A DNA stretch of 64,000 bases. It comes from Thermoplasmata archaeon. Lineage in GTDB: Archaea > Thermoplasmatota > Thermoplasmata > Lutacidiplasmatales > UBA184. Of the stretch, positions 5,291-55,653 are shown piece by piece; positions within the stretch are counted from its first letter, which is position 1, and every line of letters begins with the position of its first letter. The notes under the pieces were generated by a model that was not told where the DNA came from, did not search any database, and saw nothing but the letters and a program-made list of their open reading frames with translations. Both the position numbers and the translations under genes were made by a program. The stretch lies in assembly GCA_021828195.1 (NCBI GenBank), contig JAKASQ010000001.1, positions 468,335-532,334 of the forward strand, in the 5' to 3' direction.

Positions 5291-6418
5291 ATGACCACTT
5301 CGCTGCTCTCCGTCTCCATCGCGCTCTCGTCGGTCCTGCTCAGCGGAGTGGGATCGATCTTTCCGGCGCCGATCCAGGGTGGGCTGACGAACGGGAACAC
5401 GATCGATGCGCTGGGGATCCTGATCTTCGGGGTCATCCTGCTCGCCGCGAGCATGCTCAACACGATCTTCCTGATCTGGTGGGAGCGCAAGCTCCTCGGG
5501 CGGTTCATGGATCGGCGCGGCGCGATGCACGTCGGCTACGCCGGGCTCCTGCAGAACTTTGCGGATGGGTTCAAACTGTTCCGCAAGGACACCGTACGCC
5601 CCCGGGACGCGGATTCGATGGGATTCTTCGTCGGCCCGACCGCGTACCTCGTCACGAGCCTCGTCATCTTCGCCATCCTCCCCATCTCCACGGGATGGAA
5701 CTCCGGGAATCTTCCCCTGAGCCTCCTGCTCGCGATCACGATCTTCTCCTTCGCGCCGCTCTTCATCTTCATCAGCGCCTGGTCGAGCAACAACAAGTAC
5801 TCGCTGATCGGCGGGATGCGCTCCGCCGCGCAGATGATCGCCTACGAGGTCCCGATCCTCCTCGCGATCGTCGCGGTCGTCATCGTTTCCGGCACCTTCA
5901 GCCTCGACACGATCGTCACCGAACAGCAGAACTACTGGTACTGGGGACCGCTCTTCCTCGCGATGGTCGTCTTCGTCGCCGGAATGCTCGCCGAGATGGA
6001 ACGGATCCCGTTCGATCTCCCCGAGGCCGAGGCGGAGCTGGTCGAGGGCTGGAACACCGAGTACGGCGGGATGATGTTCGCGTACTTCATGCTCACCGAC
6101 TACGTTCGGGTCCTTCTCGGATGCTTCCTCATCGTCCTACTCTTCCTCGGCGGCTGGACGATGCCGAGCTGGGTGCCGAGCGCCTGGACGAGCTTCCCGC
6201 TCGCGGGCATCTTCTGGTTCATGCTCAAGGCGTATGCGGTGTTCACCGTCTTTGTTTGGATCCGGGCCTCGTTGCCTCGCGTGCGCACCGACCAGCTCCT
6301 CCGGGTGGGCTGGAACCGCATGATCCCGCTCAGCCTCGTTTCGATCGTGCTCGCGGCGGGACTCGTCCTCGCCAAGTGCCTCCCGGTCTTCGGTTGCCTC
6401 CCGAACCTGGGGGGATGA
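5291..6418 (+). CDS. nuoH: Nuo-type complex subunit H
   Basis: A 375-residue polytopic membrane protein, about eight hydrophobic segments, which anchors the peripheral arm to the membrane and forms the quinone entry channel. The diagnostic acidic loop EMERIPFDLPEAEAELVEGWNTEY is intact, and the preceding SAWSSNNKYSLIGGMRSAAQMIAYEVP is typical of the family. A TAGGAGGGCG ribosome binding site includes the nuoD stop codon. The stop overlaps the nuoI start (ATGA). Confidence 0.95.
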   Translation: MTTSLLSVSIALSSVLLSGVGSIFPAPIQGGLTNGNTIDALGILIFGVILLAASMLNTIFLIWWERKLLGRFMDRRGAMHVGYAGLLQNFADGFKLFRKDTVRPRDADSMGFFVGPTAYLVTSLVIFAILPISTGWNSGNLPLSLLLAITIFSFAPLFIFISAWSSNNKYSLIGGMRSAAQMIAYEVPILLAIVAVVIVSGTFSLDTIVTEQQNYWYWGPLFLAMVVFVAGMLAEMERIPFDLPEAEAELVEGWNTEYGGMMFAYFMLTDYVRVLLGCFLIVLLFLGGWTMPSWVPSAWTSFPLAGIFWFMLKAYAVFTVFVWIRASLPRVRTDQLLRVGWNRMIPLSLVSIVLAAGLVLAKCLPVFGCLPNLGG

Positions 6419-7212
6419 GCAGGGAACGATCCATGGCGGGTGCACAGGTCGAGGAGAAGACGAAGCCGAGCCGGTCGATCCTCTGGGTCGCCCGGCCGAT
6501 GCTCACGGCGGCCCGTCAGTTCGGCCGCAGCCTCCTCCGGCCGAGCACGATTGTTTACCCGTTCGAGCGCCTCGAGGACCCGAAGTTCCGCGACCGCGTC
6601 GGGATCGGCTCCGGCCGGCCCATCGGGGTCGGGCACATCTGGGACAACTACCGAGGCGTGCACGCGCTGAACATCGCCACGTGCATCAGCTGCAACCTGT
6701 GCGCGTTCAGCTGCCCGGATCTGTGCATCGACATGGTCACAGTCCCCGGCGGAGACCCGAAGCACCCGAAGAAGAGCCCCCAGATCGACTACGGGAAGTG
6801 CAGCTACTGCGGCTTCTGCTCGGACGCCTGCCCCGAGGGCTGCCTCACGATGACCACGCGCTACGAGCTGTCGGTCACCAAGCGCGCAGAGATGGTCTAC
6901 TCCCCTCAGAAGCTCCAGGAGGTCTTCGAACGAAAGCTTCCGATGAACCCGGTTCGTGTCGAGCGGCCGGCGAACGAGGACGCGATCCTGCTCGAACCGC
7001 TGCTGTGCATCGGATGCAACGCGTGCGCCCGGGACTGCCCCACCAATTGCATCACCATGCTCGATATCCCCAAGGTCGAGCCGAAGCCGGGGGAGAAGGT
7101 CGCGAAGCGGATCTGGAAGGAGCCCGTCGTTAACGATTCCGACTGCGTGCGCTGCGGCACCTGCATCAGCGTCTGCCCGAAGGAATGCCTGTTCTGGGGG
7201 ATTCGCACGTGA
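6415..7212 (+). CDS. nuoI: Nuo-type complex subunit I with four [4Fe-4S] motifs
   Basis: A 265-residue ferredoxin-like subunit, clearly longer than ordinary NuoI (about 160-190). Four CxxCxxCxxxC motifs are visible, starting at Cys90, Cys129, Cys198 and Cys244. The first pair is the normal N6a/N6b domain; the second pair looks like an added 2x[4Fe-4S] ferredoxin domain joined by a linker at about 150-195. Because nuoE, F and G are absent, the extra clusters could form an electron entry path from soluble ferredoxin. It overlaps nuoH and is followed by a GTG-started nuoJ overlapping its stop. Confidence 0.92.
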   Translation: MSRERSMAGAQVEEKTKPSRSILWVARPMLTAARQFGRSLLRPSTIVYPFERLEDPKFRDRVGIGSGRPIGVGHIWDNYRGVHALNIATCISCNLCAFSCPDLCIDMVTVPGGDPKHPKKSPQIDYGKCSYCGFCSDACPEGCLTMTTRYELSVTKRAEMVYSPQKLQEVFERKLPMNPVRVERPANEDAILLEPLLCIGCNACARDCPTNCITMLDIPKVEPKPGEKVAKRIWKEPVVNDSDCVRCGTCISVCPKECLFWGIRT

Positions 7213-43408: not shown

Positions 43409-43418
43409 CTATAAATAG
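43409..43418 (-). promoter_or_regulatory. TATA box of aglB, next to the transposon insertion
   Basis: CTATTTATAG on the minus strand, 46 bases upstream of the aglB ATG and only five bases from the target-site duplication. The insertion therefore kept the core promoter but replaced everything upstream of it. Confidence 0.6.
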
Positions 43419-43423
43419 CCTCT

Positions 43424-43432
43424 GCCTCGTCT
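43424..43432. repeat. Left copy of 9-bp target-site duplication
   Basis: GCCTCGTCT directly abuts the left terminal inverted repeat. The identical 9 bases abut the right end at 55645-55653. The match does not extend on either side, as expected for a true duplication. Confidence 0.9.
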
Positions 43433-43458
43433 GGCTTTGTAGGAGAATTTCTCGGCGG
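43433..43458 (+). repeat. Left terminal inverted repeat
   Basis: Begins GGCTTTGTAGGAGAAT. Over 26 bases it matches the reverse complement of the right end at 22 positions, with the outer 12 identical. Confidence 0.88.
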
Positions 43459-43494
43459 TGACCGATTGTCCTACAGGCCATTCGATTCTCCTAC
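43439..43494. repeat. Left subterminal transposase-binding-like motifs (3 copies)
   Basis: GTAGGAGAATT at 43439-43449, then the inverted forms GATTGTCCTAC at 43464-43474 and GATTCTCCTAC at 43484-43494. The transposase stop codon lies inside this array. Confidence 0.75.
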
Positions 43495-44808
43495 AGGCAC
43501 CGGAATCGGGGTTCCGGTAGGTACCGGCCCAATCAAGAAATCCGGCACGATCCCATGCTCGAAAATCTCGTGGATCAGCACCGTCAGGTTGTAGGCGAGG
43601 ACCTTGGCGAGGAGTTCGTTCGTCTGCGCCGTCGGGGTCCGGGATCGCAGCGTCTCCCCGAACTTGCGCTTAAGCGCGCTGAATACGGACTCTACGTTGG
43701 AGCGCGCGTGGTACTTGGCCTCGAATTCGTCACGGTGTAGCTGAAAGAAGTAGAACGCCTTGCGCCAGAGAATTGAGTGAGCCTTGCCCTCGCCGACAGC
43801 CTGCCCCCGGGTTGACACGCGGGCCCGGGCGTTGGACTTGAATGGGACGAACAAGTCGAATCCGATCTCCTCGGCGAGGGCGTAGTTGGAGCGAGCCGAG
43901 TACGCCTTGTCGGCGTAGACCTCCTTGAGCGGGAAGCCGGCGTCGGCCGCCTCTCGAATCAAAGGCTCGAATTGAGGGTTGTCCGCCCCATCCTTTTCGG
44001 TGACGATGGCCCGGATGATCACATGGGTTTTCGTCCCGGCGAGTGCGTGCGCCTTGAGCCACACGTGCTCGCGACCGTCCCCGTGTTTCTCTCCCATCCA
44101 CGCACCGAAGGAGGTCGTGCGGATGCCGGTCGAGTCCGGGGCGAACCCGGCTTCGAGGGCGGCGAGAGGGAGGGCCGACCGCGTGATCAGGTCCTTGAGG
44201 ATCGGAGTGAGCTCAGGTCGGTTCATCGCCTCGGACGACAGCGTATAGTGCGGAGCCTTCGGAAGTTGCCCACGTTCGACCGCGAACCCGAAGAGACTGC
44301 GAGCGCGACGGCAGGAGAGTTGGGAATAGACCTTCTGGACCACGCAGAAGAGTTGGTCGGCCAAGGGGATAGGGTGACGGCCGGCGCGGGTCGGCTCGCG
44401 TTCGGGCTCCGACACGCTCGCCACGAGGTCCCGGAGGAGCACGTCGAACAACCGAACCTCCTCGGTCTGGCCCTTGTCGTACGCGGCCCACGCCTGTTGA
44501 TAGGTGATGGGGACGCGTTCGCTCCGAATCTCTCCCGTGGGTAGAACGGTCTGCTTCTCAAGGTAGAACCGCACCGAAGCCGCGTGTTTGCATGGCAGGC
44601 TCCGCTTGGCGAAGTCGGGGCAGTTACACTCGACGCGCCCGGCTCCCAAAGAGACTCGGTACATACCGGGTCCACTCTGCGACTTCACGAGGAAGAGGCC
44701 GTCCTTGACCTCCTCCACCGCCCCCGGGATCTCGGCGATCTGCCGCCCCTTCTCGCTCCTCTCGGCGTCCACCTGAATCGCACCCATCGTTTCCGCCAGC
44801 GCCGTCAT
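43471..44808 (-). CDS. Transposase: SWIM zinc finger plus DDE domain
   Basis: A 445-residue transposase. The SWIM finger is C-x-C-x9-C-x-H at residues 61-75 (VECNCPDFAKRSLPCKHAA), probably for DNA end binding. The DDE triad is Asp225 in APDSTGIRT, Asp300 in EVYADKAYSARSN and Glu373 in NVESVFSALKRKFG, an IS4/IS5-superfamily layout. I start at ATG 44808 because GGGGGGAGGAAGG lies eight bases upstream and an A/T-rich promoter region follows; the open frame continues further but across that promoter. It lies against the left end of the 12.2-kb element and is its only intact transposase. Nine-base duplications are known in this superfamily. Confidence 0.85.
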   Translation of the reverse strand: MTALAETMGAIQVDAERSEKGRQIAEIPGAVEEVKDGLFLVKSQSGPGMYRVSLGAGRVECNCPDFAKRSLPCKHAASVRFYLEKQTVLPTGEIRSERVPITYQQAWAAYDKGQTEEVRLFDVLLRDLVASVSEPEREPTRAGRHPIPLADQLFCVVQKVYSQLSCRRARSLFGFAVERGQLPKAPHYTLSSEAMNRPELTPILKDLITRSALPLAALEAGFAPDSTGIRTTSFGAWMGEKHGDGREHVWLKAHALAGTKTHVIIRAIVTEKDGADNPQFEPLIREAADAGFPLKEVYADKAYSARSNYALAEEIGFDLFVPFKSNARARVSTRGQAVGEGKAHSILWRKAFYFFQLHRDEFEAKYHARSNVESVFSALKRKFGETLRSRTPTAQTNELLAKVLAYNLTVLIHEIFEHGIVPDFLIGPVPTGTPIPVPVGESNGL

Positions 44809-44844
44809 CTGTTCCTTCCTCCCCCCGTAGACTACATGTAACCT

Positions 44845-44909
44845 ATAATCTCGGTAGTACTTAAGTGCGTTGCCTACGAGGGTGTCCACCAATAGGCTAT
44901 AGTTATGTA
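44845..44909. promoter_or_regulatory. Divergent promoter region of transposase and AbrB-like gene
   Basis: This is the most A/T-rich stretch nearby. On the minus strand GATTATAGG at about 44845-44853 fits the transposase start at 44808; on the plus strand GGCTATAGTTATG at about 44896-44908 fits the AbrB-like ATG at 44942. Confidence 0.5.
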
Positions 44910-44941
44910 GTCGTTCGGCCGTGAGGCTAATCGGAGAATCC

Positions 44942-45148
44942 ATGCCTGGAACCTTCAGATCGCCGATATTGCTCGCCCGTGAAGGCTCACCCTCGGTCAG
45001 AGTGACGATCCCGGAGGGCATCGCTACGGCACTCGAAGCGAAGCCGGGTGGAGTCCTCCTCTGGACTTTGGACCTCAAGGCCGGCAGTGTGACGGTCTCG
45101 GTGGAACCGCCCCAACAGGGTGGGGCAAAGTCGTCTAGACGGCGCTGA
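44942..45148 (+). CDS. AbrB/SpoVT-like DNA-binding protein
   Basis: A 68-residue protein whose centre reads SPSVRVTIPEGIATALEAKPGGVLLWTLD, the swapped-hairpin AbrB pattern (V-T-I-P-x-G-I-x-x-A-L-x-x-K-P-G). The tail PPQQGGAKSSRRR is basic. Start ATG 44942 with GGAG six bases upstream; GTG 44921 is an alternative. It is divergent from the transposase and shares its promoter region, so it may repress transposition or the element's genes; no toxin partner is adjacent. A strong hairpin terminator follows directly. Confidence 0.7.
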   Translation: MPGTFRSPILLAREGSPSVRVTIPEGIATALEAKPGGVLLWTLDLKAGSVTVSVEPPQQGGAKSSRRR

Positions 45149-45174
45149 GAAGAGGGCATGAAGCGCCCTCTTCT
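45148..45174 (+). terminator. Hairpin terminator after the AbrB-like gene
   Basis: Perfect 10-bp stem AGAAGAGGGC (45148-45157) with GCCCTCTTCT (45165-45174), 7-base loop, followed by TCTGTT. It overlaps the stop codon and separates this gene from the convergent CRISPR transcript. Confidence 0.65.
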
Positions 45175-45205
45175 TCTGTTGAGGAACTCTTCATCATGAA
45201 ATGAT

Positions 45206-45341
45206 CTATAGGCCACCTGTTTCTCGGAGCTCCGGGCCGACCTTCTTCTGTTTCAAGGCGTCCAGGACAGCCTTGGCTTCCTCGATTACCGCGTCCTCCG
45301 GAACGATCCGCTCGCTTGGGAACGGGCCGACTTTCGCTTTC
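45206..45341 (-). pseudogene. Possible gene remnant at the leader-distal end of the array
   Basis: Beyond the last repeat, the minus strand has a clean coding-looking stretch ending KAVLDALKQKKVGPELRETGGL and a stop at 45206. Upstream it runs into the CRISPR repeats without a start codon outside them. It may be the 3' end of a gene cut by the array or by earlier rearrangement. No family recognised; it could be a chance frame. Confidence 0.3.
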
Positions 45342-46285
45342 CGGTACACCCCCACGTGCGTGGGGAATAGCTGGCGCAGCACGACCATCGCCGCCTCGAT
45401 CTCAGTACACCCCCACGTGCGTGGGGAATAGGCGCTGGCGTACGACTCCGGCAACGGGTACATCGGTACACCCCCACGTGCGTGGGGAATAGACCGACTC
45501 GGTGGGAGTCGCGACCTCCTACAGCGGTACACCCCCACGTGCGTGGGGAATAGCTGAGCGATCCCACGCTCCTCGTCTTGGAGTTCGGTACACCCCCACG
45601 TGCGTGGGGAATAGATGGCGAATGCGGGGAGCGTCGTGGCGCTGGTCGGTACACCCCCACGTGCGTGGGGAATAGCCGACCGCGTGATGCTCGGTACCGG
45701 CGCGCATCGGTACACCCCCACGTGCGTGGGGAATAGCACGATCACCTACGCGTGGACCGTCGACGGCTCGGTACACCCCCACGTGCGTGGGGAATAGGCA
45801 AAGACGTGGCAAGGTTGGGTCTCTCCCTTCGGTACACCCCCACGTGCGTGGGGAATAGACCAGGTCACGGTCTACCCCGAGAACCCGACGCGGTACACCC
45901 CCACGTGCGTGGGGAATAGGGCGGGAGTTCCGGTAGTCTCCTCTGCACTCCCGGTACACCCCCACGTGCGTGGGGAATAGCATATCGCCCACTTGCCGTT
46001 GGCGATGTCCTCCGGTACACCCCCACGTGCGTGGGGAATAGGGGATGGCCGCGATGGCCGCCAAGCACCCCGACGGTACACCCCCACGTGCGTGGGGAAT
46101 AGCTGCTCTACCACGGAGAGGTTCAGAGCTTCTACGGTACACCCCCACGTGCGTGGGGAATAGGGCCTCGACCCGTTCGTTCCCGGCCTTGTGTACGGTA
46201 CACCCCCACGTGCGTGGGGAATAGCCGCTGTCCGCCATCGAGTACGCCTCCCTGATCGGTACACCCCCACGTGCGTGGGGAATAG
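45342..46285 (-). CRISPR. Type I-E CRISPR array, 16 repeats and 15 spacers
   Basis: Repeats are 29 bases and start every 61 bases from 45342 to 46257; all 15 spacers are 32 bases, the I-E standard. In transcript orientation (minus strand) the repeat starts CTATTCCCC, has a stem CCCCACG-CA-CGTGGGG for Cas6e, and ends GTGTACCG. Fifteen repeats look identical; the one at 45403-45431 has a single change (next-to-last base), near the old end. The leader-proximal end is at 46285, beside cas2. Uniform repeats and spacer lengths suggest an active or recently active array. Confidence 0.97.
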
Positions 46286-46313
46286 ACTAAACTCAGTAAA
46301 CACCGGCGCATTC
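46286..46313 (-). promoter_or_regulatory. Very short leader between cas2 and the array
   Basis: Only 28 bases, moderately A/T-rich (contains ACTAAACTCAGTAAAC on the plus strand), separate the cas2 stop from the first repeat. Any integration or promoter signal must lie here or within cas2. The array may be transcribed as the tail of the cas operon. Confidence 0.5.
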
Positions 46314-46613
46314 CTAAGTGTTGCCGTTGGAGAGCTTCTCCTTTGGCTCGTAGATTAGCGGGACCCCATCGAAGTCTCGGAACATCTTTCGCATCCGACC
46401 TATCTGCCTCCATTGGAAGCCGCAGGGGGCGCTGGCAGTCCATAGCATTGTGGCTCCTCCCTTCCCCACGCCCTTTTCAATCCTCACCCAAAGCTCCTCC
46501 CGAACGCGGGCTGTCGGACTGCCCACGAAGACTCCCGCTTTCGGCTCGAGCAGCCATCGAGACAGCGCGCCCTTCAAGCTCGTCGGGACTCTCTCCAAGA
46601 AAATCACCAACAC
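46314..46613 (-). CDS. cas2: CRISPR-associated endonuclease Cas2 (type I-E)
   Basis: A 99-residue Cas2e. The start is GTG at 46613, giving MLVIFLERVPTSLKGALSRWLLEPKAGVFVGSPTARVREELW, which aligns closely with E. coli Cas2 ([26 protein letters not shown]). It forms the Cas1-Cas2 integrase that adds new spacers. It overlaps the 3' part of cas1 by 137 bases in another frame, more than usual for this gene pair. The stop is 28 bases from the array. Confidence 0.9.
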   Translation of the reverse strand: MLVIFLERVPTSLKGALSRWLLEPKAGVFVGSPTARVREELWVRIEKGVGKGGATMLWTASAPCGFQWRQIGRMRKMFRDFDGVPLIYEPKEKLSNGNT

Positions 46614-47427
46614 CGAAGACCTCCTCGATGTCCGGAAGGATCCGCCGAATCAACTGCTTTTCGCGGAGGATGTCCCGGCAGACGCGACGGACTTGTATCT
46701 CAAGGTCCTCAGGCGGAGCCGCCCCGAACCGAAATGCGATGGGGAGTGCCACCTCGGTCTTGTAGAGGTCCGCCACGTCATAGACGAAACTGAGCATCCG
46801 GCCACGATGCACGAATCCGAGGGCGGGAGAAAGCCCGACGGAGACGATGGCCGCGTGGCAGACTCCGTAGAGGCACGCATTGGCCGTCGAAAGCGCACGG
46901 TTGAGGGGGCCGCCGGCGTCCCAAGCGTCTTGGTCGTACGCTCTGCCCTGCCACGGTACGTGGAACTCCTCTGCGAGTCTCCGATAGCTTTGTCGGACGC
47001 GGATGCCCTCCATTCCCCGCAGTTGCTCCATCGTGATCTCGGGGGGAAGGGGATTCGAGAATCGCTTCTGGTACATCCTTCGGGCGACACCCAAGCGAGC
47101 CAGCTCGTCCGTTGCAAGCCTCGCCTGAATCTGGATGCGTCGTGAACTGAACGTGGCCCCAGTGCTGTGGGCGTAGAGCCGGACTCCTTGCTCCCCCACC
47201 CAAGCGACCAGGCAGCTGTTGTCGGCGAGTGCGCGCATCGCCGCATGGGAAATGACGGTCCCCGGCCCAAGCATCAGGAGTGCCAGCTGGTCGACAGGTA
47301 TCCGCGTGACTCCATCTTTATCGTGCGCGCAAAGGCCGTCCGCATCTTGGTCCACCTTGCAGTGTTCCAAGTAGAGATGGCTCCAACGGTCCTCGAAGCG
47401 CGGCACTTCATGGAGCCGCCGGGGCAC
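46477..47427 (-). CDS. cas1: CRISPR-associated endonuclease Cas1 (type I-E)
   Basis: The 316-residue spacer integrase. The beta-domain shows LALLMLGPGTVISHAAMRALADNSCLVAWVGEQGVRLYA, matching Cas1e. Metal ligands are Glu140 in LRGMEGIR, His207 in GFVHRGR, and Asp217/Asp220 in SFVYDVADLYK. All are intact. The last ~35 residues (ESPDELEGRAVS...) are an extra tail that overlaps cas2. The start lies one base after the cas6e stop. Confidence 0.95.
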   Translation of the reverse strand: MPRRLHEVPRFEDRWSHLYLEHCKVDQDADGLCAHDKDGVTRIPVDQLALLMLGPGTVISHAAMRALADNSCLVAWVGEQGVRLYAHSTGATFSSRRIQIQARLATDELARLGVARRMYQKRFSNPLPPEITMEQLRGMEGIRVRQSYRRLAEEFHVPWQGRAYDQDAWDAGGPLNRALSTANACLYGVCHAAIVSVGLSPALGFVHRGRMLSFVYDVADLYKTEVALPIAFRFGAAPPEDLEIQVRRVCRDILREKQLIRRILPDIEEVFGVGDFLGESPDELEGRAVSMAARAESGSLRGQSDSPRSGGALGED

Positions 47428-47428
47428 T

Positions 47429-48196
47429 CTAACCTCCTGGAATGGGCCTCACGGAGACCAGCCCGAAGCCGAACGCCTTGCCCGGACCAATGCCGTGTAT
47501 GAAGGCGTGGCGGAAAGACTGTGGGTCGGTCACCTCAAGGATGCCGTCGTACTGAGCCGAACGCAAGCGAGTCCCTGTTCCCTCCCCGTTCTTCGCCACA
47601 TACAGGTAACCGGGCTGCACGTTGTACAATCGGACGACCCGAAATCCCGCGTCTCCAGCGCGGCGCATGAGCCAGTCCTGGAGCATTCCCCTTGGCACCG
47701 GGACGCGTTTGCCTTTCCCCTTCAAGTTCTTCCAGAGTTCCGGATTGATGAGTTTCCCATCGGGTCCGAGGGAAGCCTCGCGCAGCCGTTTCGTCGGATT
47801 CGCGAGCAGGCGGAATCTCCAGGCCTGCCCCGCTTCGAACAATGGGTCGTAGGGCTGTACCTGAGGAGGGGCAGCGAGAAGGTACCCTGCGTTCTGAAAG
47901 GCATACTCCCAGTCTGGCCGTGTAGCCGACTGGACCAAAATCAACGCACGGTTTCCAGGCTGAGGGTCAACACGGAAAAGGAACGCCTGCAATTCGGAAC
48001 GGGGGCCGTGGACATGCGTGAAGCTCCCCGGAGAGTAAGGCTTCAGGAACGCGGGATCGTCGGCTTTCGCAGCAAGAGAGGGAAAGGCCATGCAGAGCCG
48101 CTGATGGACCCGGTACCGGTTACGGAGCCACAACCGCCCAGGCCGAGGGCGGTCGGGGTTGTCCCCCAGGTCTACCAAGAGGGAGGAGAGATGCAC
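47429..48196 (-). CDS. cas6e: CRISPR RNA endonuclease Cas6e
   Basis: A 255-residue crRNA processing nuclease. I start at GTG 48196 (VHLSSLLVDLGDNPDRP, the normal beta-strand N-terminus), 11 bases after the cas5 stop, with AGGATAGGGGGG upstream; the frame is open further into cas5. The YRVHQRLCMAFP segment holds the likely catalytic His, and the C-terminal Gly-rich loop is HGIGPGKAFGFGL. It cuts the repeat hairpin CCCCACG/CGTGGGG and stays bound to the crRNA in Cascade. Confidence 0.92.
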   Translation of the reverse strand: MHLSSLLVDLGDNPDRPRPGRLWLRNRYRVHQRLCMAFPSLAAKADDPAFLKPYSPGSFTHVHGPRSELQAFLFRVDPQPGNRALILVQSATRPDWEYAFQNAGYLLAAPPQVQPYDPLFEAGQAWRFRLLANPTKRLREASLGPDGKLINPELWKNLKGKGKRVPVPRGMLQDWLMRRAGDAGFRVVRLYNVQPGYLYVAKNGEGTGTRLRSAQYDGILEVTDPQSFRHAFIHGIGPGKAFGFGLVSVRPIPGG

Positions 48197-48207
48197 TCGT
48201 GTCCCCC

Positions 48208-49299
48208 CTATCCTTCCGACAGCCGCCGTCGACGGTTCTCCACAGAGCGGAAGCTCACAATTTCCGCCCGCTTGGCGAGGATCTTCCCGCGCCATTTCGG
48301 GTCCTCCGGGTTGATCCGGTCGATCCCCATGCCGTGGCCGTACTCGACCATGGTCGCAGCATCATGGCAGAGACGACACATGGAGCGCAGGTCATCCAGC
48401 AGCTCGTCCCCTCCCGCCCGACGATAGGTGATGTGCTGGACGGTACCGGCCGGCGATTTGCACAGGACACAGAGCTCGCGGTCGGTCTGGAGACGCTCCT
48501 TGCGCCGTTGGCGGAACCGTCCGTTGGCGTAGTCAGCCCGCGGACGAGGTGGCGCCGTGGTCGCGCTCTGCCCTGGTTCCTTCGCGATGCTCACGCCACC
48601 GGTCGGTGCGACCTTCAGCTCGCGCCGGACGACGAAGCGAGGCCGGTGGACCGGCGGCTCGAAGCTCACCGGCACATCGTAAGAGACCCGCTCTCCGGTG
48701 GGGGCCCTGGGCAGTCCATCGGACGGGTGCCAGTCGAGCAGACACGTCAACAATTCTGGGGGCAGGTCCCCCTTCAAACGAGGACGCCAAGGGACCGAGG
48801 CAAGGGCGGAGATCACGTCGGGGTGATCCGTCGCGGGACGCTCCAAGATAGGGGACGAGGGGGGACAGGATTTCCTCCCGAGGTACGGGACCCAACAAGG
48901 CTCACGCAGCGCCCGTTCGAGTTCGGCCACCAAGGTCGACTCTCCCTGTAGAGCGACGAGGAAACTCGCATCGCAGAGGTACTCCCTTCTCGAGAGGAGC
49001 GGCCCCTCCTTCCCCGTTGAATCGGCGGTCCGCAACCTGCTCCCGGCCCCGACGGTCTGATAGTCCCACCAACGGACCCCGGGACGGTCGATGCGGACCC
49101 CCATCCGAAGGGACCCCAGTCGGTCGAGCCACCCCTCCGCGCACCGGCGTCGCTCGATACCGAGCGCGGCGCACAGCAGGCCAAACACTCCCGACTTCGT
49201 CGGGGCCTCCGAGGTTCGGCGGACCACGAACCTCGATTGCTGGTCCCCCCACGATTGTAAGGGACCTTCAAGCCGGAGGAAGAACGTGTTCGCGCACAT
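48208..49299 (-). CDS. cas5e-hnh: Cas5e fused to a C-terminal HNH nuclease domain
   Basis: A 363-residue fusion. Residues 1-235 are Cas5e: FFLRLEGPLQSWG, GLLCAALGIERRR, WWDYQTVGAGSR, SRREYLCDASFLVAL and PCWVPYLGRKSCP match E. coli CasD motif for motif. After a Pro-rich linker (about 236-260), residues 265-345 form a zinc-type HNH domain: Cys277-x2-Cys280, His289 in VQHITYRR, LLDDLRSMCRLCHDAA with Cys308-x2-Cys311 and His312, then GMGIDRINPEDPKWRGKI. The middle N of HNH is Asp here. With cas3 absent, this domain is the obvious candidate for DNA cleavage by Cascade. Confidence 0.93.
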   Translation of the reverse strand: MCANTFFLRLEGPLQSWGDQQSRFVVRRTSEAPTKSGVFGLLCAALGIERRRCAEGWLDRLGSLRMGVRIDRPGVRWWDYQTVGAGSRLRTADSTGKEGPLLSRREYLCDASFLVALQGESTLVAELERALREPCWVPYLGRKSCPPSSPILERPATDHPDVISALASVPWRPRLKGDLPPELLTCLLDWHPSDGLPRAPTGERVSYDVPVSFEPPVHRPRFVVRRELKVAPTGGVSIAKEPGQSATTAPPRPRADYANGRFRQRRKERLQTDRELCVLCKSPAGTVQHITYRRAGGDELLDDLRSMCRLCHDAATMVEYGHGMGIDRINPEDPKWRGKILAKRAEIVSFRSVENRRRRLSEG

Positions 49300-49317
49300 G
49301 GTGGTGCTCGTCGGCCT

Positions 49318-50550
49318 TTACCTTGCCGCGCCTGCGACCGGGCGGGGTAAGCTCCCGACCGCTTGCTTGGCGAAAGCGATGAGTTCGTCGAGCGACCTAA
49401 CCTCCTTCGTGGCCAAGGCGAGGGCAGGCTTCGACCCCGATGGCGGGACCTCCAATCGGTAGCGGCCGTTCGGGGAGAACCAGCATCTGGCGCTCGGTGC
49501 GCCATACCCGGTGTCCAGGTCGTATACGTACTGGGACAACTGGGCGACGCTCTGCTCGACAATGTCGCGTTCCCCCGGTACAACAGGTCTCGCGAAGGCG
49601 TTGGCATAGCTGAGAGGGGTTTCGCGCATCTCCACGAGGATGCCGTCCGGCGGATTGTGTGCCGCGAAACTGTTCTGCTTGCCCGTCGGGGTGACCAGCG
49701 TCGCCGCTTGTACAAACGCCGCCACGACTTCTTGGGCGACCGCCTCGGCGTTCGCAATGCCCTCGAGGTTTCCGACGAGCGTCCCCCAGTCGATGGAGAA
49801 GTACTTGTAGAAGCAAGCAGAAGCGAAGGCGGCCTCGCCCACGTAGCCCGCCCCCGCGTCATCCCCGTGGACATCGTCGCGGGCGGTATAGTAGTCAGTC
49901 TCAGGGCGGGCCTCGTGCGTGGAGATGGCGTGCGCTACTTGCGCTGAGGCCTCCACAGTCTTCCGCTCCTGATGCTGCTGCCAGACCTTATTGAAGACCT
50001 TCCTGACCTCCTTTCCATTCCAGTCATTCCCTCCGGGCGTTTTGGGCTCAAGCATTCGCCCGAAGAGGGCCATGTCAGGGGCCAGAGTGCCGCCGGCGAT
50101 TTCTGCGGCGAATCCCTGTGCTAGCTCGCCGTCCGCTCTTGCGTCCCCCTCCTTGAGGGACTTGGCCATCGCGACAATCGCGGCCCGGGTTGTGAAAATG
50201 AGCATCTTGCTCCGCTTGCCCTCTTCGGCGGCCTCTTCCTCCGAAGCCTCGCTCTTGCCACCGTTCGGCGCGAACCCGCACATTCCTATGACGCGCTCGG
50301 CCCTGGCTTCGAGCTCGGGATCCCCTTCCGCGATCAACTTCGCCAGCTGGCGCGTCCGCACACCACGGGGAAGAGACCCGAGCTCATCGAACTGAGGACT
50401 CATGCGGATGCTCCGCTTCAGGCACTGGCTCGAGATTCGCGAACGCAAGACCCCGCCGAAGAAGCAGGTCTTGGGGACCCCGAGATCGTCGCGGTTCAGG
50501 TTCGCAGGGCTGTGGTTCTGGATCATGTGGATTCCAATCAGTTTCGCCAT
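49318..50550 (-). CDS. cas7e: Cascade backbone protein Cas7e (Cse4/CasC)
   Basis: A 410-residue RAMP subunit that polymerises along the crRNA. Start ATG 50550 (MAKLIGIHMIQNHSPANLNRDDLGVPKTCFFGGVLRSRISSQCLKRSIR), five bases after the cse2 stop; the N-terminus matches Cas7e almost exactly, whereas the longer frame runs into cse2. A mid-protein segment with YYTARDD and AFASACFYKYFSIDW is also typical. It is somewhat longer than E. coli Cas7e (363), with insertions in the thumb region. Confidence 0.95.
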   Translation of the reverse strand: MAKLIGIHMIQNHSPANLNRDDLGVPKTCFFGGVLRSRISSQCLKRSIRMSPQFDELGSLPRGVRTRQLAKLIAEGDPELEARAERVIGMCGFAPNGGKSEASEEEAAEEGKRSKMLIFTTRAAIVAMAKSLKEGDARADGELAQGFAAEIAGGTLAPDMALFGRMLEPKTPGGNDWNGKEVRKVFNKVWQQHQERKTVEASAQVAHAISTHEARPETDYYTARDDVHGDDAGAGYVGEAAFASACFYKYFSIDWGTLVGNLEGIANAEAVAQEVVAAFVQAATLVTPTGKQNSFAAHNPPDGILVEMRETPLSYANAFARPVVPGERDIVEQSVAQLSQYVYDLDTGYGAPSARCWFSPNGRYRLEVPPSGSKPALALATKEVRSLDELIAFAKQAVGSLPRPVAGAAR

Positions 50551-50555
50551 CTCCT

Positions 50556-51059
50556 TCACTCCGTACTCGTTTCGTTTTGGTCGAGGAACTCCTTCACCCA
50601 TCGCTCGCGCGTACTTGCCCTTCGCCATCTGGAGAGGTCATTGGTCAGCGCGACCCAGTCTAGCGCGCTCTGCCGCGATGCAATCGCACGCAGCGCCCAG
50701 CGCAACGATGGCTCGATGTCGCTGAGCGAGGAGGTCACCAGCCGGTCGAAGCGTTCCTGGAACGATTTCGCCGCCCGAGGCTCCTTGGGCTGCGCATGGC
50801 ACAGCTGGATCGCCATCTTTCGGCCGGGGTGGTGGGCCAGCGGGACCTTGGCGTAGAGCTTGGCGACCAGCCAAGCCGCCTCGCGACGCGGCGCCTGCGG
50901 GCTCCTTTCCCTCAGGGGCCACCACAGGCTCGTGAAGAGGTCGAAACCGACCACGGACCTATCGAGCGGCAGCCCGGCGTGGGCGCGGAGCACCTCAAGG
51001 TCTCCGGGCCCGAGTTCGGTAAGGGAGGCGACGTACTCTTCCGTGGGGCTGGGGCTCAT
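50556..51059 (-). CDS. cse2: Cascade small subunit Cse2/Cas11e
   Basis: A 167-residue, mostly helical protein between cas8e and cas7e, where Cse2 always lies in type I-E. Visible are FDLFTSLWWPLRERSPQAPRREAAWLVAKLYA and a basic helix RFDRLVTSSLSDIEPSLRWALRAIASRQSALDWVALTNDLSRWRR, similar to the Cse2 WxxLxxDLxxW pattern near the end. It stabilises the R-loop in Cascade. The start overlaps the cas8e stop (ATGA). Confidence 0.88.
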   Translation of the reverse strand: MSPSPTEEYVASLTELGPGDLEVLRAHAGLPLDRSVVGFDLFTSLWWPLRERSPQAPRREAAWLVAKLYAKVPLAHHPGRKMAIQLCHAQPKEPRAAKSFQERFDRLVTSSLSDIEPSLRWALRAIASRQSALDWVALTNDLSRWRRASTRERWVKEFLDQNETSTE

Positions 51060-52504
51060 GGGGAACCGGCTCCTGCGGCTTCAGGCGCGCCGCCTGCCCG
51101 TCGGGGCGCGGCGCGTAATCCCGACGTGGCTCTCGTTTTCGATCCGCGACGTTCGCCGTCTCCCTTTCCCTCGCCCCCAACCAGTATGCCTGCAAGTTCC
51201 CGCTGTCGTCGCAGGGAGCTGGACGTCCTCCCCGGGAACAGCGCGGATGCCACGGCTTCGAACACGACACGGTGCTGATAAAGGGCATTGGCACCGTCGC
51301 CTCCTCCGTCCGCAAAGTTCGCTTGAACGCTCGTTGAGACTAAGTGCTCCAGTTGTGGGAAGATCGAAGCGTAGAGCGGTTTCCGCTTCGCGTCTTTGGT
51401 GGAGACCCGATGCATGCTCCGTTGCCACCGTTCGAATTCCCTTGCTGCCCGCGGAACGTCGTCGGGGGAATCGGGACGGGGCACAGAGCTTTCTTGTACG
51501 TCCAGGAACTTGGCCCGGTCTGTGGCAAAGGCGACGAGCCACGTCCTTCCCACCACATCCGACACTGCTCCGTTCGTCTGATCGAGAAGGCTGAGGAGCT
51601 TAACCCCTTGGGCGGCCGCCCCTGCGGGATTGGACAACGAATCGACCGGTGTGACGACTCTCCGGTCGCGGAGCACATGGGGGTCTTCCCACGTGAACCC
51701 CCGCACCGGGGCGACGCCGGTCCGGACGAGGTGATGGATTAGCGGGGCCCGATGACCGCAGGCCGCGCAGGCGTCGATCTCCCCGCGCGGGTCGTCGATC
51801 CAAACCCGCCATGGGAGCCAGGTGAGCCCGGTCAGCACCGGGACGTCCCCTTGCGATGGCAACTTCAGCTCTGGCTGGATCCATGCCGGAGTCCCGATTT
51901 GGCCGACCGAACTCCACGAGAGCCGCAGGGTCTCTTCCAGCGTCGCGCCCACGGGAACTGCATAGACGGGAGGCTTGCCGTTGATCCCGTGGGTGAACGT
52001 CCGGCCCCAGATTGGCGTGAACGCGGGTAGCCGGATCAGACCAATCGCACAGCACGCGGGACAGAGCCCCTCGGCCCCGTCGACGGCGTGGCGAAAATGC
52101 GACGCGCTGGTCCCCGTCGGAATCTCGTGCCGGAGATAGCCGACCGGTTGGAGGTCCCTTTTCCCGGAACTACGTGTCTGGTAGAACCGTCGGTTGGGGC
52201 CGAGAAGATCGAAGCACTCCCGGTCGACATCCAACTTCCGCAAGACCTCCGCGGGGAACAACTCCCCTGCTCCTTCCGAGGCAGGGGCTCCCGGTGGATT
52301 CTCCCGGCACCAGTACAGCAGCGCCAGTAGAAGCCGGCAGATGGCGACGCGGTCGAGGGGACTGCTGGCTGCGACGCCGCGAATCCGAGGAGACTCACGG
52401 AGTGCTTCCCGAACGCCTACTTGGCGAACCTCGCCGCCGGTGCGTAACACCGGTATCCAAGGCTCGTCAAGGAGGTTGTAGCTCGCCGAAATCCCACTGG
52501 TCAT
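51056..52504 (-). CDS. cas8e: Cascade large subunit Cas8e/Cse1
   Basis: A 482-residue PAM-recognising large subunit. The N-terminus YNLLDEPWIPVLRTGGEVRQVGVREAL is diagnostic for Cse1, followed by CRLLLALLYWC, LLGPNRRFYQ and AEGLCPACCAIGLIRLPAFTPIWGR, with a second Cys pair in DACAACGH. The C-terminal four-helix bundle ends in a basic, low-complexity tail. AGGAAG precedes the ATG. It leads the cas operon; in a standard I-E locus cas3 would lie upstream, but here only a transposase remnant and an IS are found. Confidence 0.93.
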   Translation of the reverse strand: MTSGISASYNLLDEPWIPVLRTGGEVRQVGVREALRESPRIRGVAASSPLDRVAICRLLLALLYWCRENPPGAPASEGAGELFPAEVLRKLDVDRECFDLLGPNRRFYQTRSSGKRDLQPVGYLRHEIPTGTSASHFRHAVDGAEGLCPACCAIGLIRLPAFTPIWGRTFTHGINGKPPVYAVPVGATLEETLRLSWSSVGQIGTPAWIQPELKLPSQGDVPVLTGLTWLPWRVWIDDPRGEIDACAACGHRAPLIHHLVRTGVAPVRGFTWEDPHVLRDRRVVTPVDSLSNPAGAAAQGVKLLSLLDQTNGAVSDVVGRTWLVAFATDRAKFLDVQESSVPRPDSPDDVPRAAREFERWQRSMHRVSTKDAKRKPLYASIFPQLEHLVSTSVQANFADGGGDGANALYQHRVVFEAVASALFPGRTSSSLRRQRELAGILVGGEGKGDGERRGSKTRATSGLRAAPRRAGGAPEAAGAGSP

Positions 52505-52560
52505 GTCTTCCTACGAGCGCCCAGAGCTTCCACTATGGGACGGACCAGATGAACATGTCG
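52501..52560 (-). pseudogene. C-terminal remnant of an IS4/IS701-like transposase
   Basis: Read in its own frame, the sequence just before cas8e gives RHVHLVRPIVEALGARRKT and a stop at 52501. This resembles the C-terminus RLHEIIRPLVEALALPR of the nested IS transposase at 52903. It looks like the scar of an earlier insertion or deletion exactly where cas3 is usually encoded. Short, so tentative. Confidence 0.4.
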
Positions 52561-52853
52561 GCGTGAAATGGAGACCTCTGAGGGGACAGGCCGGCTCGTG
52601 AAGTCAAACCTGGTATCGGGGCGGGGATGGTCCTCGAGAGGTTGAGCGACTGCCCGTTCCCCATCCGAGGAGTTCGGTCCCGGCAGAGCGGGACAGGAGG
52701 AGAGGCTCACCCTACGTGGTGAAGGGGGACTTCGGTCACGTCCGAAATGAGCGCCTTGACCACACGACGTTCCGGGCCGTCCTAGACCTGGCCGGCCGAA
52801 CCTTTCGAGCCGGTCAAGATCCTGTAGGTTCTTCTCGCGTATGCTTCCGTCGT
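52561..52853. other. Non-coding gap upstream of cas8e
   Basis: Between the remnant and the nested IS I see no gene, no Cas3-like motif on either strand and no convincing TATA box. The cas promoter, if here, is not recognisable by eye. It may be decayed DNA left by the events that removed cas3. Confidence 0.5.
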
Positions 52854-54390
52854 CTTTCGCACAATCCGGACCCCTCCCGGACCCCCGGCAAGGGGTCTCC
52901 CGCTACCGTGGGAGCGCCAGCGCCTCCACCAGTGGTCGGATGATTTCGTGAAGTCGTGGTTCGCCCCCGAACCTTGACGAAACCTCCTCCCGCCACAGGT
53001 CTCCTCGCAACGCGGAGATCGCGTCGAGGAAGGAGGGACGCGCTTTCTTCGGATACCACGGCAGTCTCACCAGCCTCGGTTTGGGGCCCTGCGTCTCGAG
53101 ATACCACGTCCAGACCGCCGAGTAGAGCCAGAAGGCGAGCGAGGCCGCTCGCTCCGGCCCCTTGCCCTTCCAGCTCTGTGGCTCCTCCCCGCCGAGGCTC
53201 TGCTTCGCGCTCCTCAGCGTATCTTCGATCGGCCACCTTCCGAAGTAATGGCTCACCACCGCCCCGGGACTCAGGGCGAGGTCGGTGGTGAACAGGAAGT
53301 CGTCCCTCTCGCGGCCCGTCGGGTCCCGGGAAACCACGACCCGGATCGGCTGGGTCCCGCAAGTCCCATACCACAGGACGACGCGCGACAGCACGAGCCG
53401 TCGGTCGAGTCTCCCGCGTCGGTCCACGACGACGTTCTCCCACCCCTGGTGCGTCCGAGTCGCCCACGCCGTCAGCGACGGGAGCCGCTCGCCCTTCTTG
53501 CGGGGTCGGCCGTTCTGTCCCGGGCGGCGAGGCGCCGGGAAGTCGTAGAGCGCGGCGTCGCGACGAATCCGCGAGGTGACTGCGGTGCGGGAGAGTTCGG
53601 CCCCCGCCAGAGGCGAGTAGGCCCCGTCGGCGATGAGATGGAGCTCCCGGTCCGGGTGCCGCTCGGCGAGCCGTCGGACCGAACGGGCGCCGAGTTCGGG
53701 GAGGGTCGTACCACCCTTGCGGTGGAGGTGGACGGCGAGGGGAAGGGCGAGCGGTTCGCCGCCCCAGGGCGGCCGCACCCGAAGGGCGAGGACGAGGAGG
53801 TTGAGACCGCGGTCGTAGACGACGGAGCTCTTCGAGGAACGGACGGCGTCGCGGAAGAGGCCGGCGTCCTCGACCTTCCGTCCCCGACGGTGGAAGAGGG
53901 TGTCATCGAGGAGGAGGTCGATGCGCGCCTCGGAGGCGAAGAGGCCGATCAGGAAGGGCGGTGTGGTCCCAGAGCTCGTCGAGGGACCAGGCGGCCGCCC
54001 GAACGAGGCGATGGTAGGCGTCGTGGGGTCGGCGATGGAGGAGGCCTCCCCCACGAATCATCCCCGTGACCGTGCGACGGGCCGGGCAGAGAATCCAGGC
54101 GGTGGCGAGCTCGCGGAAGAGGGCCGCCGCCGGGGTGGTAAACACCTCGGCGAAGAGGTCGAGGAGGGTGGCCCAGAGGGCCACGGAGGCCGAGACCGAG
54201 TGGACCGATGCGTTCTTGGGACGGCGTGCTCCCGGGTCGGTTGCAGCCGCAAGGCTGCCCCCGATGGCGTGTTGCTTCACACCGACTCGTCTCGGGGTCA
54301 CTATCAATTCGAGGGGGTTCCACTGGCAATCCCCGGGCAGACAAGCGGCTCATGAGGACTGGCTCAGCCGGGGCTCAAAATGTGCGAAAG
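52854..54390 (-). mobile_element. Nested insertion sequence (IS701/IS4-like)
   Basis: Short inverted ends CTTTCGCACA (52854-52863) and TGTGCGAAAG (54381-54390) bracket a frameshifted DDE transposase. No target duplication is clear next to these ends. Ends and transposase differ from those of the 12.2-kb element, so this is a later, independent insertion within it. Confidence 0.7.
52903..54307 (-). pseudogene. Frameshifted DDE transposase of the nested IS
   Basis: The upstream frame (54307 to about 53960) reads LFAEVFTTPAAALFRELATAWILCPARRTVTGMIRGGGL and RAAAWSLDELWDH, the usual N-terminal domain. The downstream frame (about 53975 to 52903) continues with RIDLLLDDTLFHRRGRK (first Asp), LIADGAYSPL (second Asp) and YFGRWPIEDTLRSAKQSLGG (Glu). 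The two parts are joined only by a +1 shift near 53950-53975. No obvious programmed site, so probably inactive or a base-call error. Confidence 0.8.
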
Positions 54391-54477
54391 TCGACAGACT
54401 GAGCTGCTTCACTAACGGGCGGTCCTCGTGAACCGTAGCCTCGCCTCTCCGCTCGCAAAGCAGAGGTCGGGCTAACG

Positions 54478-54503
54478 CGAGAGAGCCTTTCGAGAGAGCC
54501 TTT
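54478..54503. repeat. Tandem duplication of 13 bases
   Basis: CGAGAGAGCCTTT occurs twice head to tail, upstream of the cargo-gene promoter. It may be simple slippage or a binding site pair. Confidence 0.6.
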
Positions 54504-54527
54504 CGACACAAAGCTCCAGTCGAGGTT

Positions 54528-54575
54528 CAAATTAAATAAGGGCCCCGGTGTTCTCATTGGCCGAAGCTTTAAGTG
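54528..54575 (+). promoter_or_regulatory. Promoter of the two cargo genes
   Basis: Two candidate TATA boxes are present: AAATTAAATAAG at about 54528-54539 and CTTTAAG at about 54567-54573. The second is about 30 bases before ATG 54601, suiting a leaderless mRNA. Confidence 0.45.
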
Positions 54576-54600
54576 GGTGTGGCTTTCCCCAGGAACGAGC

Positions 54601-54801
54601 ATGGACGAAAAGTACTCCGACATTCGCATCCGCAAGGTGAAGATTCTCCGCGGGCGCGCTCGTGAGGCGGCCGACAATGCCGGTGCCGCGGACGACGACC
54701 TGGTCATTTTGAAGACCTCTGAGTACCACTCCCAGCCTACGTACGTCGCCGAGAAGATCGAAGGAGACCCCACTGGCTTCTTGCTCAGGCCCAAAAAGTA
54801 A
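54601..54801 (+). CDS. Transposon cargo: 66-residue unknown protein
   Basis: A small protein starting MDEKYSDIRIRKVKILRGRAREAADNAG and ending GDPTGFLLRPKK. Mixed charged, no Cys, no membrane segment. The first 25 residues could form a DNA-binding or partner-binding element. It is followed after 23 bases by a second gene with its own GGGAG ribosome binding site, so a two-gene operon is likely. A toxin-antitoxin, accessory CRISPR or transposition role are all possible; none can be shown. Confidence 0.65.
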   Translation: MDEKYSDIRIRKVKILRGRAREAADNAGAADDDLVILKTSEYHSQPTYVAEKIEGDPTGFLLRPKK

Positions 54802-54824
54802 CGGACGACGCGGGAGTGTCGTCG

Positions 54825-55421
54825 ATGGGCGATTCAACTCATTCAGACGGAGGACGGACCCTTATCCTGATCCTGCCCAAAACGTTTTTTGACCAGAGTT
54901 TCCTCCTTCCATTCGATAATAGTCCATCCGGATTCAAGGTGACCAACTCATATCGCTTCATCGCAAATACCCTCATCGAGGTCACGGCAGGCCTCCCGGA
55001 GAACACGGTAATGGCGGCAACCTCGTTGTCCGCTTTTGACTCGTTTGGTAAAGAGCTGGAGAAGAAATCGTTGGCGACGGAAGCCAAGGAGGTCTTGGCC
55101 CTCTTTCGAAACATGGTGGTCATCGTGCCAACCGAAAGCATGAACGCCCTCAACGAGGTGGATTCCATGATTGCCCTCGCCGACCGGATGGGGACGACCT
55201 CTTGTCTCGATCCGGTGATTGTTATCCACCCCAAGAGTGCGGAGAAGTACCGGAGGGCGATTGCGTCCTACTACGGGACTCCCGCGGGGAAGCCTAGGCC
55301 ATCTGCCCAGACTTTCCGAGTCCTAGAGCCGGCCGAGGCGAAAGTTCTGCTTGAGGTGACGTTTCCTGAGGAGACTCGCATCGTTCTCACGAGGACCGCC
55401 GCACCATTCAACATCTTTTAG
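54825..55421 (+). CDS. Transposon cargo: 198-residue unknown protein
   Basis: Starts MGDSTHSDGGRTLILILPKTFFDQSFLLPFDN (ATG 54825 with GGGAG upstream; GTG 54816 is possible). Alternating strands and helices (NTVMAATSLSAFDSFGKELEKKSLATEAKEVLALFRNMVVIVPTESMN, CLDPVIVIHPKSAEKYRRAIASYYG) look like an alpha/beta globular domain. I cannot assign a family. G+C is lower than in host genes, consistent with foreign origin. It is the last gene before the right end of the element. Confidence 0.7.
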   Translation: MGDSTHSDGGRTLILILPKTFFDQSFLLPFDNSPSGFKVTNSYRFIANTLIEVTAGLPENTVMAATSLSAFDSFGKELEKKSLATEAKEVLALFRNMVVIVPTESMNALNEVDSMIALADRMGTTSCLDPVIVIHPKSAEKYRRAIASYYGTPAGKPRPSAQTFRVLEPAEAKVLLEVTFPEETRIVLTRTAAPFNIF

Positions 55422-55577
55422 TTCGCCGTGATCTACTTGATGGGTCCCTTTCATGCTCCTCGTCGCATCGGCCCACAAGTCGTAGGGACCGCCCCTCGGT
55501 CTCGCTCCTCAACTGTCACTCCCGGTCAGGGCCGAGGCTCATCCGCCGATTTGTTACCGAACCACAGGTGGGGGTCG

Positions 55578-55638
55578 ATTCTCCTACATTCGGCTCAAGC
55601 CCGGATCGATTCTCCTACTGACGAGAGATTGTCCTACA
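55578..55638. repeat. Right subterminal motifs (3 copies)
   Basis: GATTCTCCTAC at 55578-55588 and 55609-55619, and GATTGTCCTAC at 55628-55638, the last being part of the terminal repeat. Same motif family as at the left end. Confidence 0.75.
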
Positions 55639-55644
55639 AAGCCG
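55619..55644 (-). repeat. Right terminal inverted repeat
   Basis: Reverse complement begins GGCTTTGTAGGACAAT; it matches the left end at 22 of 26 positions. Confidence 0.88.
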
Positions 55645-55653
55645 CCTCGTCTT
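55645..55653. repeat. Right copy of 9-bp target-site duplication
   Basis: GCCTCGTCT, identical to 43424-43432. Confidence 0.9.

Follow-up and report, generated by a model that had tools for sequence, protein, structure and literature searches.

A Cas3-less type I-E CRISPR-Cas system on a probably mobile 12.2-kb transposon of a Thermoplasmata archaeon

The element, its transposase and its cargo genes

The stretch of 64,000 nucleotides analysed here (the window) is part of a 799-kb contig of a Thermoplasmata archaeon, the genome of which amounts to 1.62 Mb in 7 contigs and is 93.6% complete. Positions 43433-55643 of the window are occupied by a transposon of 12,211 bp that holds a 15-spacer array of clustered regularly interspaced short palindromic repeats (CRISPR) and the genes of a type I-E system. 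An earlier note on this DNA had proposed that a whole CRISPR-Cas system is the cargo of a transposon here, and its description of the ends was confirmed. The terminal inverted repeats, GGCTTTGTAGGAGAATTTCTC... on the left (43433-43459, plus strand) and ...GATTGTCCTACAAAGCC on the right (55617-55643, minus strand), have arms of 27 nt that are 85% complementary and identical at all of their outer 12 bases. Outside both of them lie exact 9-bp duplications of the target, GCCTCGTCT, at 43424-43432 and 55644-55652 (neither has a strand). Further inwards, each end bears two copies of a subterminal repeat (repeat family D4), CGATT(G/C)TCCTACAGGC at 43463-43498 on the left and CGATTCTCCTAC... at 55576-55622 on the right. 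These inner TGTAGGAGAAT-type copies, present at both ends, are likely bound by the transposase.

The possibility that such ends arise by chance was evaluated on pairs of GG[C/G]TTTG and CAAA[C/G]CC located 1-20 kb apart in 44 loci (the window and the 43 others described below). Among 76 pairs, 9 are flanked by 9-mers with at most one mismatch; all 9 are exact and the window element is one of them. No end pair matched in the offset controls, in which the left 9-mer was moved out by 11 and 23 bases, and chance ends were rejected on this basis.

The transposase gene, tnpA (43471-45216, minus strand), encodes 581 amino acids and ends 38 bases inside the left end, where the earlier note had placed a DDE transposase. 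The protein consists of a SWIM zinc finger and a DDE_Tnp_1 domain (Pfam; 89.3 bits over a cutoff of 23). D361, D436 and E509, which we take from their motifs to be the catalytic triad, and the C-x-C...C-x-H residues of the SWIM finger are invariant in all nine transposases of the family described below. Against the IS5 family models of NCBIfam the protein stays under the cutoff (best NF033579, 121.3 versus 140 bits) and is therefore filed under no named insertion sequence (IS) family. Searches by sequence recovered no tnpA relative among solved structures at E <= 1, and no confirmed relative of either tnpA or the Cas5 protein in IMG/VR.

From the transposase inward, the cargo follows in the order array, cas2e, cas1e, cas6e, cas5e, cas7e, cse2 and cse1, all on the minus strand. 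The array (45342-46285) is made up of 16 repeats of 29 bp and 15 spacers of 32 bp. The adaptation genes are cas2e (46314-46613; TIGR01873, 63.9 bits for a cutoff of 33.15) and cas1e (46477-47427; TIGR03638, 367.9 bits for a cutoff of 215.6). They are followed by cas6e (47429-48295), a cas5e with a C-terminal HNH nuclease domain (Cas5-HNH; 48208-49299), cas7e or cse4 (49318-50628), cse2 or cas11 (50556-51059) and cse1 or cas8e (51056-52504), the product of which matches PF09481 with 119.8 bits (cutoff 24.7) and TIGR02547 with 67.4 bits, just below the cutoff of 70.05. The presence of cas8e, cse2, cas7e, cas5e and cas6e places the system in type I-E.

The Cas5 protein is 363 residues long. Its C-terminal part matches the HNH family PF01844 with 20.6 bits, slightly below the cutoff of 21.4, and a subunit of the solved HNH-Cascade (8yb6) matches the protein in two segments, which jointly span residues 3-360 and include the HNH region. 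C277, C280, H289, C308, C311 and H312 are invariant across 16 aligned Cas5-HNH sequences taken from 120 listed matches. No cas3 was found among the scanned proteins of the element, and Cas3_HD (PF18019) gave no match in the archaeon's own genome (0/1, at the completeness given above), the same search being positive in 7 of 14 control genomes. Because cas3 is missing and Cas5 bears an HNH domain with conserved residues, the system is, judging from its sequence, the known Cas5-HNH variant of type I-E. According to one study, a relative of this protein cuts double-stranded DNA without Cas3 and leaves 3' overhangs (PMC10910872). The earlier note had considered the array, adaptation and interference genes complete; this holds for the array, cas1e, cas2e and the Cascade genes, but not for cas3, instead of which there is Cas5-HNH.

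Beyond cse1 lie a nested IS701-family copy and two plus-strand open reading frames (ORFs). The nested copy (52846-54398, minus strand; inverted repeat I3, NF049999) contains the second transposase ORF of the element (52903-54353), which is split (52903-54054 and 53949-54353), and occupies what is presumably the place of cas3 in ordinary type I-E operons. The plus-strand ORFs encode a small protein of 66 amino acids without Pfam family (54601-54801) and a protein of at most 201 amino acids without Pfam or NCBIfam family (54816-55421). No Rfam family was found in the element. The repeat nearest to cas2 is separated from the cas2 stop codon by only 28 bp (46286-46313), which makes for a very short leader, if this is where the leader is located.

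Empty sites and related elements

When the flanks of the element are joined, they match the closest relative (G001) without interruption (C24:224269-225064, 94% over positions 1-800), and a single GCCTCGTC stands at the junction. The empty site that had been named beforehand as a check of the transposon was thus found. The joined flanks have some match in 72 of the 78 genomes of the genus, the archaeon's own included, and 46 of the 77 others, G001 among them, have by our reading of the match listing one match that crosses the junction, from position 16 or before to position 739 or beyond. Cas5-HNH is restricted to 1 of these 78 genomes, the archaeon's own, and no relative was found to carry the same genes at the same locus without these ends. 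At the level of the class, Cas7e matches occur in 16 of 400 genomes and only the archaeon's own one has Cas5-HNH; the 15 other Thermoplasmata genomes have ordinary type I-E genes, and the Cas5 match ends in all 15 of them by residue 229, before the HNH region. Inverted ends, a target duplication, a transposase inside and an empty site in a relative are accordingly all found, as befits a cargo-carrying DDE transposon.

The family was surveyed in 43 further stretches around relatives of the transposase, together with the window (two of these loci, L034 and L129, are the same DNA). Eight of the nine exactly flanked end pairs enclose a transposase and one, in L050, does not. Besides the window element, seven more complete elements with related transposases thus have the same type of end (GGCTTTG...) and other exact 9-bp duplications. 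The complete transposase-bearing elements measure 12.2 kb in the window, 6.6 kb in L033, 7.2 kb in L039, 3.6 kb in L040, 4.5 kb in L041, 10.3 kb in L047, 4.2 kb in L125 and 6.2 kb in L128. G001 has an element of its own elsewhere, which is split: its two ends are on different contigs, one close to where C2 ends and the other close to where C27 starts, with TCTCCGGCG on both outer sides. Its transposase is 79-81% identical to that of the window and its cargo is different. This element brings the number of transposase-bearing elements to nine, all of which hold further ORFs. The other check that had been named beforehand, namely further copies with other 9-bp duplications and other cargo, consequently gave a positive answer, and the ends are not confined to short IS copies: none of the 8 complete copies is a bare IS, the smallest measuring 3.6 kb. 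The empty site, the copies with other content and the lack of bare IS copies agree with the proposal that the CRISPR-Cas system is cargo inside a transposon. A second empty site was found for L041, where a match spans the junction in G070 (78%). The identity of the transposases (32-79%) is correlated with the similarity of the first 16 bases of the ends (Spearman 0.70, a value that none of 2000 label permutations reached), which is what one would expect of transposases that each act on their own ends. The G+C content of the element is below that of its flanks in 8 of the 8 complete elements, barely so in L039 (0.486 versus 0.489).

Defence-type genes were recognised in 6 of the 9 elements, the CRISPR of the window included. 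The cargo of L047 comprises KwaA (6.9e-21) and KwaB (6.4e-8), that is, the Kiwa pair. L040 carries a DNA methyltransferase with an Mrr-type domain, L128 two methyltransferases (1.4e-110 and 1.8e-127) and a NOV_C protein, L039 a Csa1/Cas4-like protein (6.3e-25) along with BrxC/D-like and ABC/GNAT proteins, and the G001 element a NucS_C nuclease. With PADLOC, 6 of 20 cargo proteins reach 1e-20 and 8 reach 1e-10, versus 0 and 1 of 10 flanking control proteins, respectively; the scanned proteins were chosen by hand and these figures are an indication, not an enrichment test. Since other members share the type of end, have other exact 9-bp duplications and in several cases bear other defence-type gene sets, the window element appears to belong to an archaeal family of cargo transposons.

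Several other observations were made in these loci. Two cargo proteins of the G001 element, of 459 (L035, 17435-18814) and 421 amino acids (L092, 9-1274), have no Pfam or PADLOC match and are candidates for unknown defence genes. In L041 (8350-9707) and L033 (283-1078), a small protein that resembles HicA by eye, without Pfam match, is encoded behind an unknown gene; these pairs are possibly toxin-antitoxin systems. L050 contains, at 5491-6914, a 1.4-kb element with the same type of end and an exact duplication, GGAGTAGAC, but without transposase, which is likely a non-autonomous copy; it lies about 3.3 kb from a transposase relative. In L051 (11550-11595), CAAAGCC is followed by GGGTGGTCC and then by GGCTTTGGGATTTTT, a stretch that could be either two back-to-back element ends or a terminator-like hairpin behind the transposase. 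The window element (43409-43432) and L040 (near 6490) are inserted in intergenic DNA a few bases from TATA-box-like sequences (TATAAATAG and TATATAGG), and a target preference for promoters is possible. Finally, a transposase copy with 52% identity (L049, 9410-10333, in G037) lies about 1.5 kb from a homologue of stt3, a gene that also flanks the window element.

Immunity, movement and alternative explanations

The array was compared with the 78 genomes of the genus and matches were found in 6 besides the archaeon's own: spacer 5 in G001, spacer 15 in G021, a single repeat-like match in G012 and spacer 14 in G009, G007 and G124. Spacer 5 (45981-46012) matches at 29 of 32 bases within an ORF. 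A Phage_integrase gene (PF00589, 5.6e-9) that adjoins a tRNA-Arg gene lies some 3 kb away, and the target region looks like an integrated plasmid or virus of the sister species. No family of Pfam or PHROGs was found for the target ORF, the 15 relatives of which are unnamed; the ORF contains an HWHA stretch reminiscent of HUH replication proteins. The matches of spacers 14 and 15 and the repeat-like match were excluded as evidence; those of spacer 14 (45432-45463) extend over 23-26 bases of a repeated coding sequence for a YDSGNG-type surface protein in G007, G009 and G124. The CRISPR system likely serves in immunity. The earlier note had held the locus competent for it, and it still looks so, but the nuclease route would be that of Cas5-HNH and not that of Cas3.

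Taking this evidence together, the 12.2-kb transposon very probably holds a Cas3-less type I-E system (Cas5-HNH) as cargo and likely moves whole by means of its own SWIM-DDE transposase. The transposase would bind the ends and the subterminal repeats and cut, and the whole element would be inserted with a 9-bp stagger. Cas1-Cas2 would add spacers, Cas6e would process the transcript of the array, and Cascade would find the target, which the HNH domain of Cas5 would cut in place of Cas3. The ends, the duplication, the empty site, the family, the gene content and the conserved residues are seen in the sequences; transposition, its cut-and-paste chemistry, immunity and a benefit to the host or the element are inferred.

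A number of observations weigh against this interpretation. The empty site of G001 is 6 bases shorter (a TCGTC tandem) and is not a letter-perfect pre-insertion allele. Both ends were recovered in only 8 of the 44 transposase loci; in the others the ends may have been cut off with the contig, may have decayed or may differ from the pattern, so that the family has at least the number of members counted here. The match in L125 has two stop codons upstream of an open frame of 451 amino acids, and the nested, split IS701 copy indicates that insertions also hit the cargo region. The cas proteins of the window (tblastn, E <= 1e-4) match none of the 43 other loci and, as only one CRISPR-bearing element was found, the combination with CRISPR cargo is a single event. 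Three of the nine elements (L033, L041 and L125, the last one by Pfam only) contain no recognised defence gene, and 3 of the 10 flanking controls of the PADLOC scan match at E <= 0.01, the best of them at 3.6e-12 and methyltransferase-like. Lastly, spacers 1, 2 and 5 (3 of 15) have no exact match of 22-24 bases in IMG/VR, and the array has no match in the phage collection.

Other scenarios for the arrangement were considered. One of them is that the Cas3-less Cascade picks the insertion sites for the transposase, as in CRISPR-associated transposons (CASTs). Like CASTs (Tn7-like, CasMu), the element has CRISPR genes in a DDE transposon, and like the majority of type I CASTs (PMC11656645, PMC10910872) it lacks cas3; tnpA directly adjoins the array, and a review names I-E among the captured subtypes and mentions I-D CASTs with a full functional system (PMC11656645). 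Nevertheless, nuclease and adaptation genes are missing from most CASTs according to the same review, whereas the window element has an HNH nuclease with intact residues, a relative of which cuts DNA, as well as cas1 and cas2, which few CASTs have; the nuclease loss seen in most CASTs, I-D exceptions apart, is not seen here. As the earlier note had stated, there is no tnsABC or tniQ-like gene: no TnsA, TnsC or TniQ-type protein occurs among the ten scanned proteins of the element, the only transposases are the SWIM + DDE_Tnp_1 and IS701 ones in lieu of Tn7/Mu-type proteins (TnsA/B/C, TniQ, MuA/B), and no adaptor protein was found. Apart from the array itself, the window contains no spacer match at E <= 0.01, so that no homing spacer was found either. 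Moreover, the 43 other loci have no cas match, and yet the complete elements in them share the type of end and the 9-bp duplications. An RNA-guided transposon of this kind is therefore highly improbable.

A composite transposon, in which two IS copies once flanked the cas locus and one of them decayed, would leave a transposase at one end only, as observed. However, two flanking IS copies were not found: tblastn detects one tnpA in the element, the only 9-bp duplication surrounds the unit as a whole, and the 8 complete transposase-bearing copies all exceed the size of an IS, the smallest (3.6 kb) containing a methyltransferase. This makes a composite origin very unlikely. It is even harder to believe that the CRISPR locus was inherited vertically, that an IS landed beside it and that the right end matches by chance. 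All that speaks for such a resident locus is how often IS copies occur beside CRISPR loci in general, while just 1 of 78 genomes of the genus has Cas5-HNH, the duplication is exact with 0 matches in the controls, the subterminal repeats are common to both ends, and the empty site refutes it unless all the relatives lost the locus precisely. A casposon was also rejected. In casposons Cas1 is the integrase, accompanied by PolB and without an array. The window element shares with them its archaeal host, inverted repeats, target duplication and a cas1 gene, but its mobility gene is a DDE transposase, its Cas1 is an ordinary I-E Cas1 beside cas2 and the array, and no PolB is present among the ten scanned proteins.

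Origin and significance

The taxon-named relatives of the transposase are archaeal among the 120 listed of 270 matched, whereas those of Cas5-HNH are bacterial among the 120 listed of 1629 matched (Terriglobia, Chloroflexi, Hydrogenedentes, Zixiibacteriota and Desulfobaccales) and 61-68% identical, its own entry apart. A search of plasmids with Cas5-HNH returned 212 records, all below 60% identity and none covering 80% of the query, with 20 listed rows annotated as ordinary cas5e. The direct route of type I-E into archaea that the earlier note had seen in this element was not borne out: with archaeal relatives of the transposase and bacterial relatives of Cas5-HNH, the cross-domain step is unexplained by the transposon. 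On present sequence comparisons, the transposon would account for spread within Thermoplasmata and not for the jump between domains, and on the simplest reading an archaeal transposon would have picked up a bacterial-type system on a single occasion.

The system resembles the Cas5-HNH type I-E systems described for instance in Candidatus Cloacimonetes, which in the available parts of the sources have the same Cascade genes, a C-terminal HNH on Cas5, no cas3 and 32-nt spacers (PMC10910872, PMC11822464, PDB 8yb6); cas3 is lacking in most Cas5-HNH systems, as it is here. Unlike the Cloacimonetes type, it is archaeal, has cas1 and cas2 and is located inside a transposon with ends and duplication; the same parts of these papers make no mention of transposon carriage for the variant (PMC10910872, PMC11822464). 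Tn7-like cargo transposons also have end repeats and defence genes as cargo. In a 2021 survey, few of them carry a complete CRISPR system and no Tn7-like transposase homologues are reported in archaea (PMC8649781), whereas the window element has an archaeal host and, where Tn7-like elements have a machine of several subunits, a single SWIM-DDE transposase. A complete CRISPR-Cas system on an archaeal integrated element has a precedent in Thaumarchaeota, where it is of type I-B, but those elements are cryptic and kept apart from IS-like transposons of 1-2 genes, and both the subtype and the archaeal phylum are others (PMC6563490). In the open-licence papers covered by the literature search, neither this transposon family nor a Cas5-HNH-bearing transposon is named in any title or abstract opening found. 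Cargo transposons and Cas5-HNH were already known. As far as these searches show, the novelty lies in the carrier, in its family, the members of which bear various kinds of defence-type cargo, and in the presence of Cas5-HNH on it in an archaeon.

It seems fairly probable that an archaeal family of single-transposase shuttles, with GGCTTTG ends and 9-bp duplications, moves whole defence systems (Cas5-HNH CRISPR, Kiwa, restriction-modification and Cas4/BrxD-like ones) through Thermoplasmata, and that its CRISPR member is an adaptation-capable, Cas3-free system on a DDE transposon that is neither Tn7 nor Mu. The ways in which whole CRISPR-Cas systems pass from genome to genome have mostly been deduced from trees with many gaps; here the vehicle is visible, and the compact Cas5-HNH variant is placed on a presumably mobile unit. 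As a genetic tool for archaea, the transposase might be worth a trial, and the ends and the transposase provide a search handle with which more archaeal defence systems should be found through their carriage on such elements. The elements of this family, which in archaea would play the part of the Tn7-like defence carriers, likely serve as shuttles by which immune systems would be carried from one site to another.

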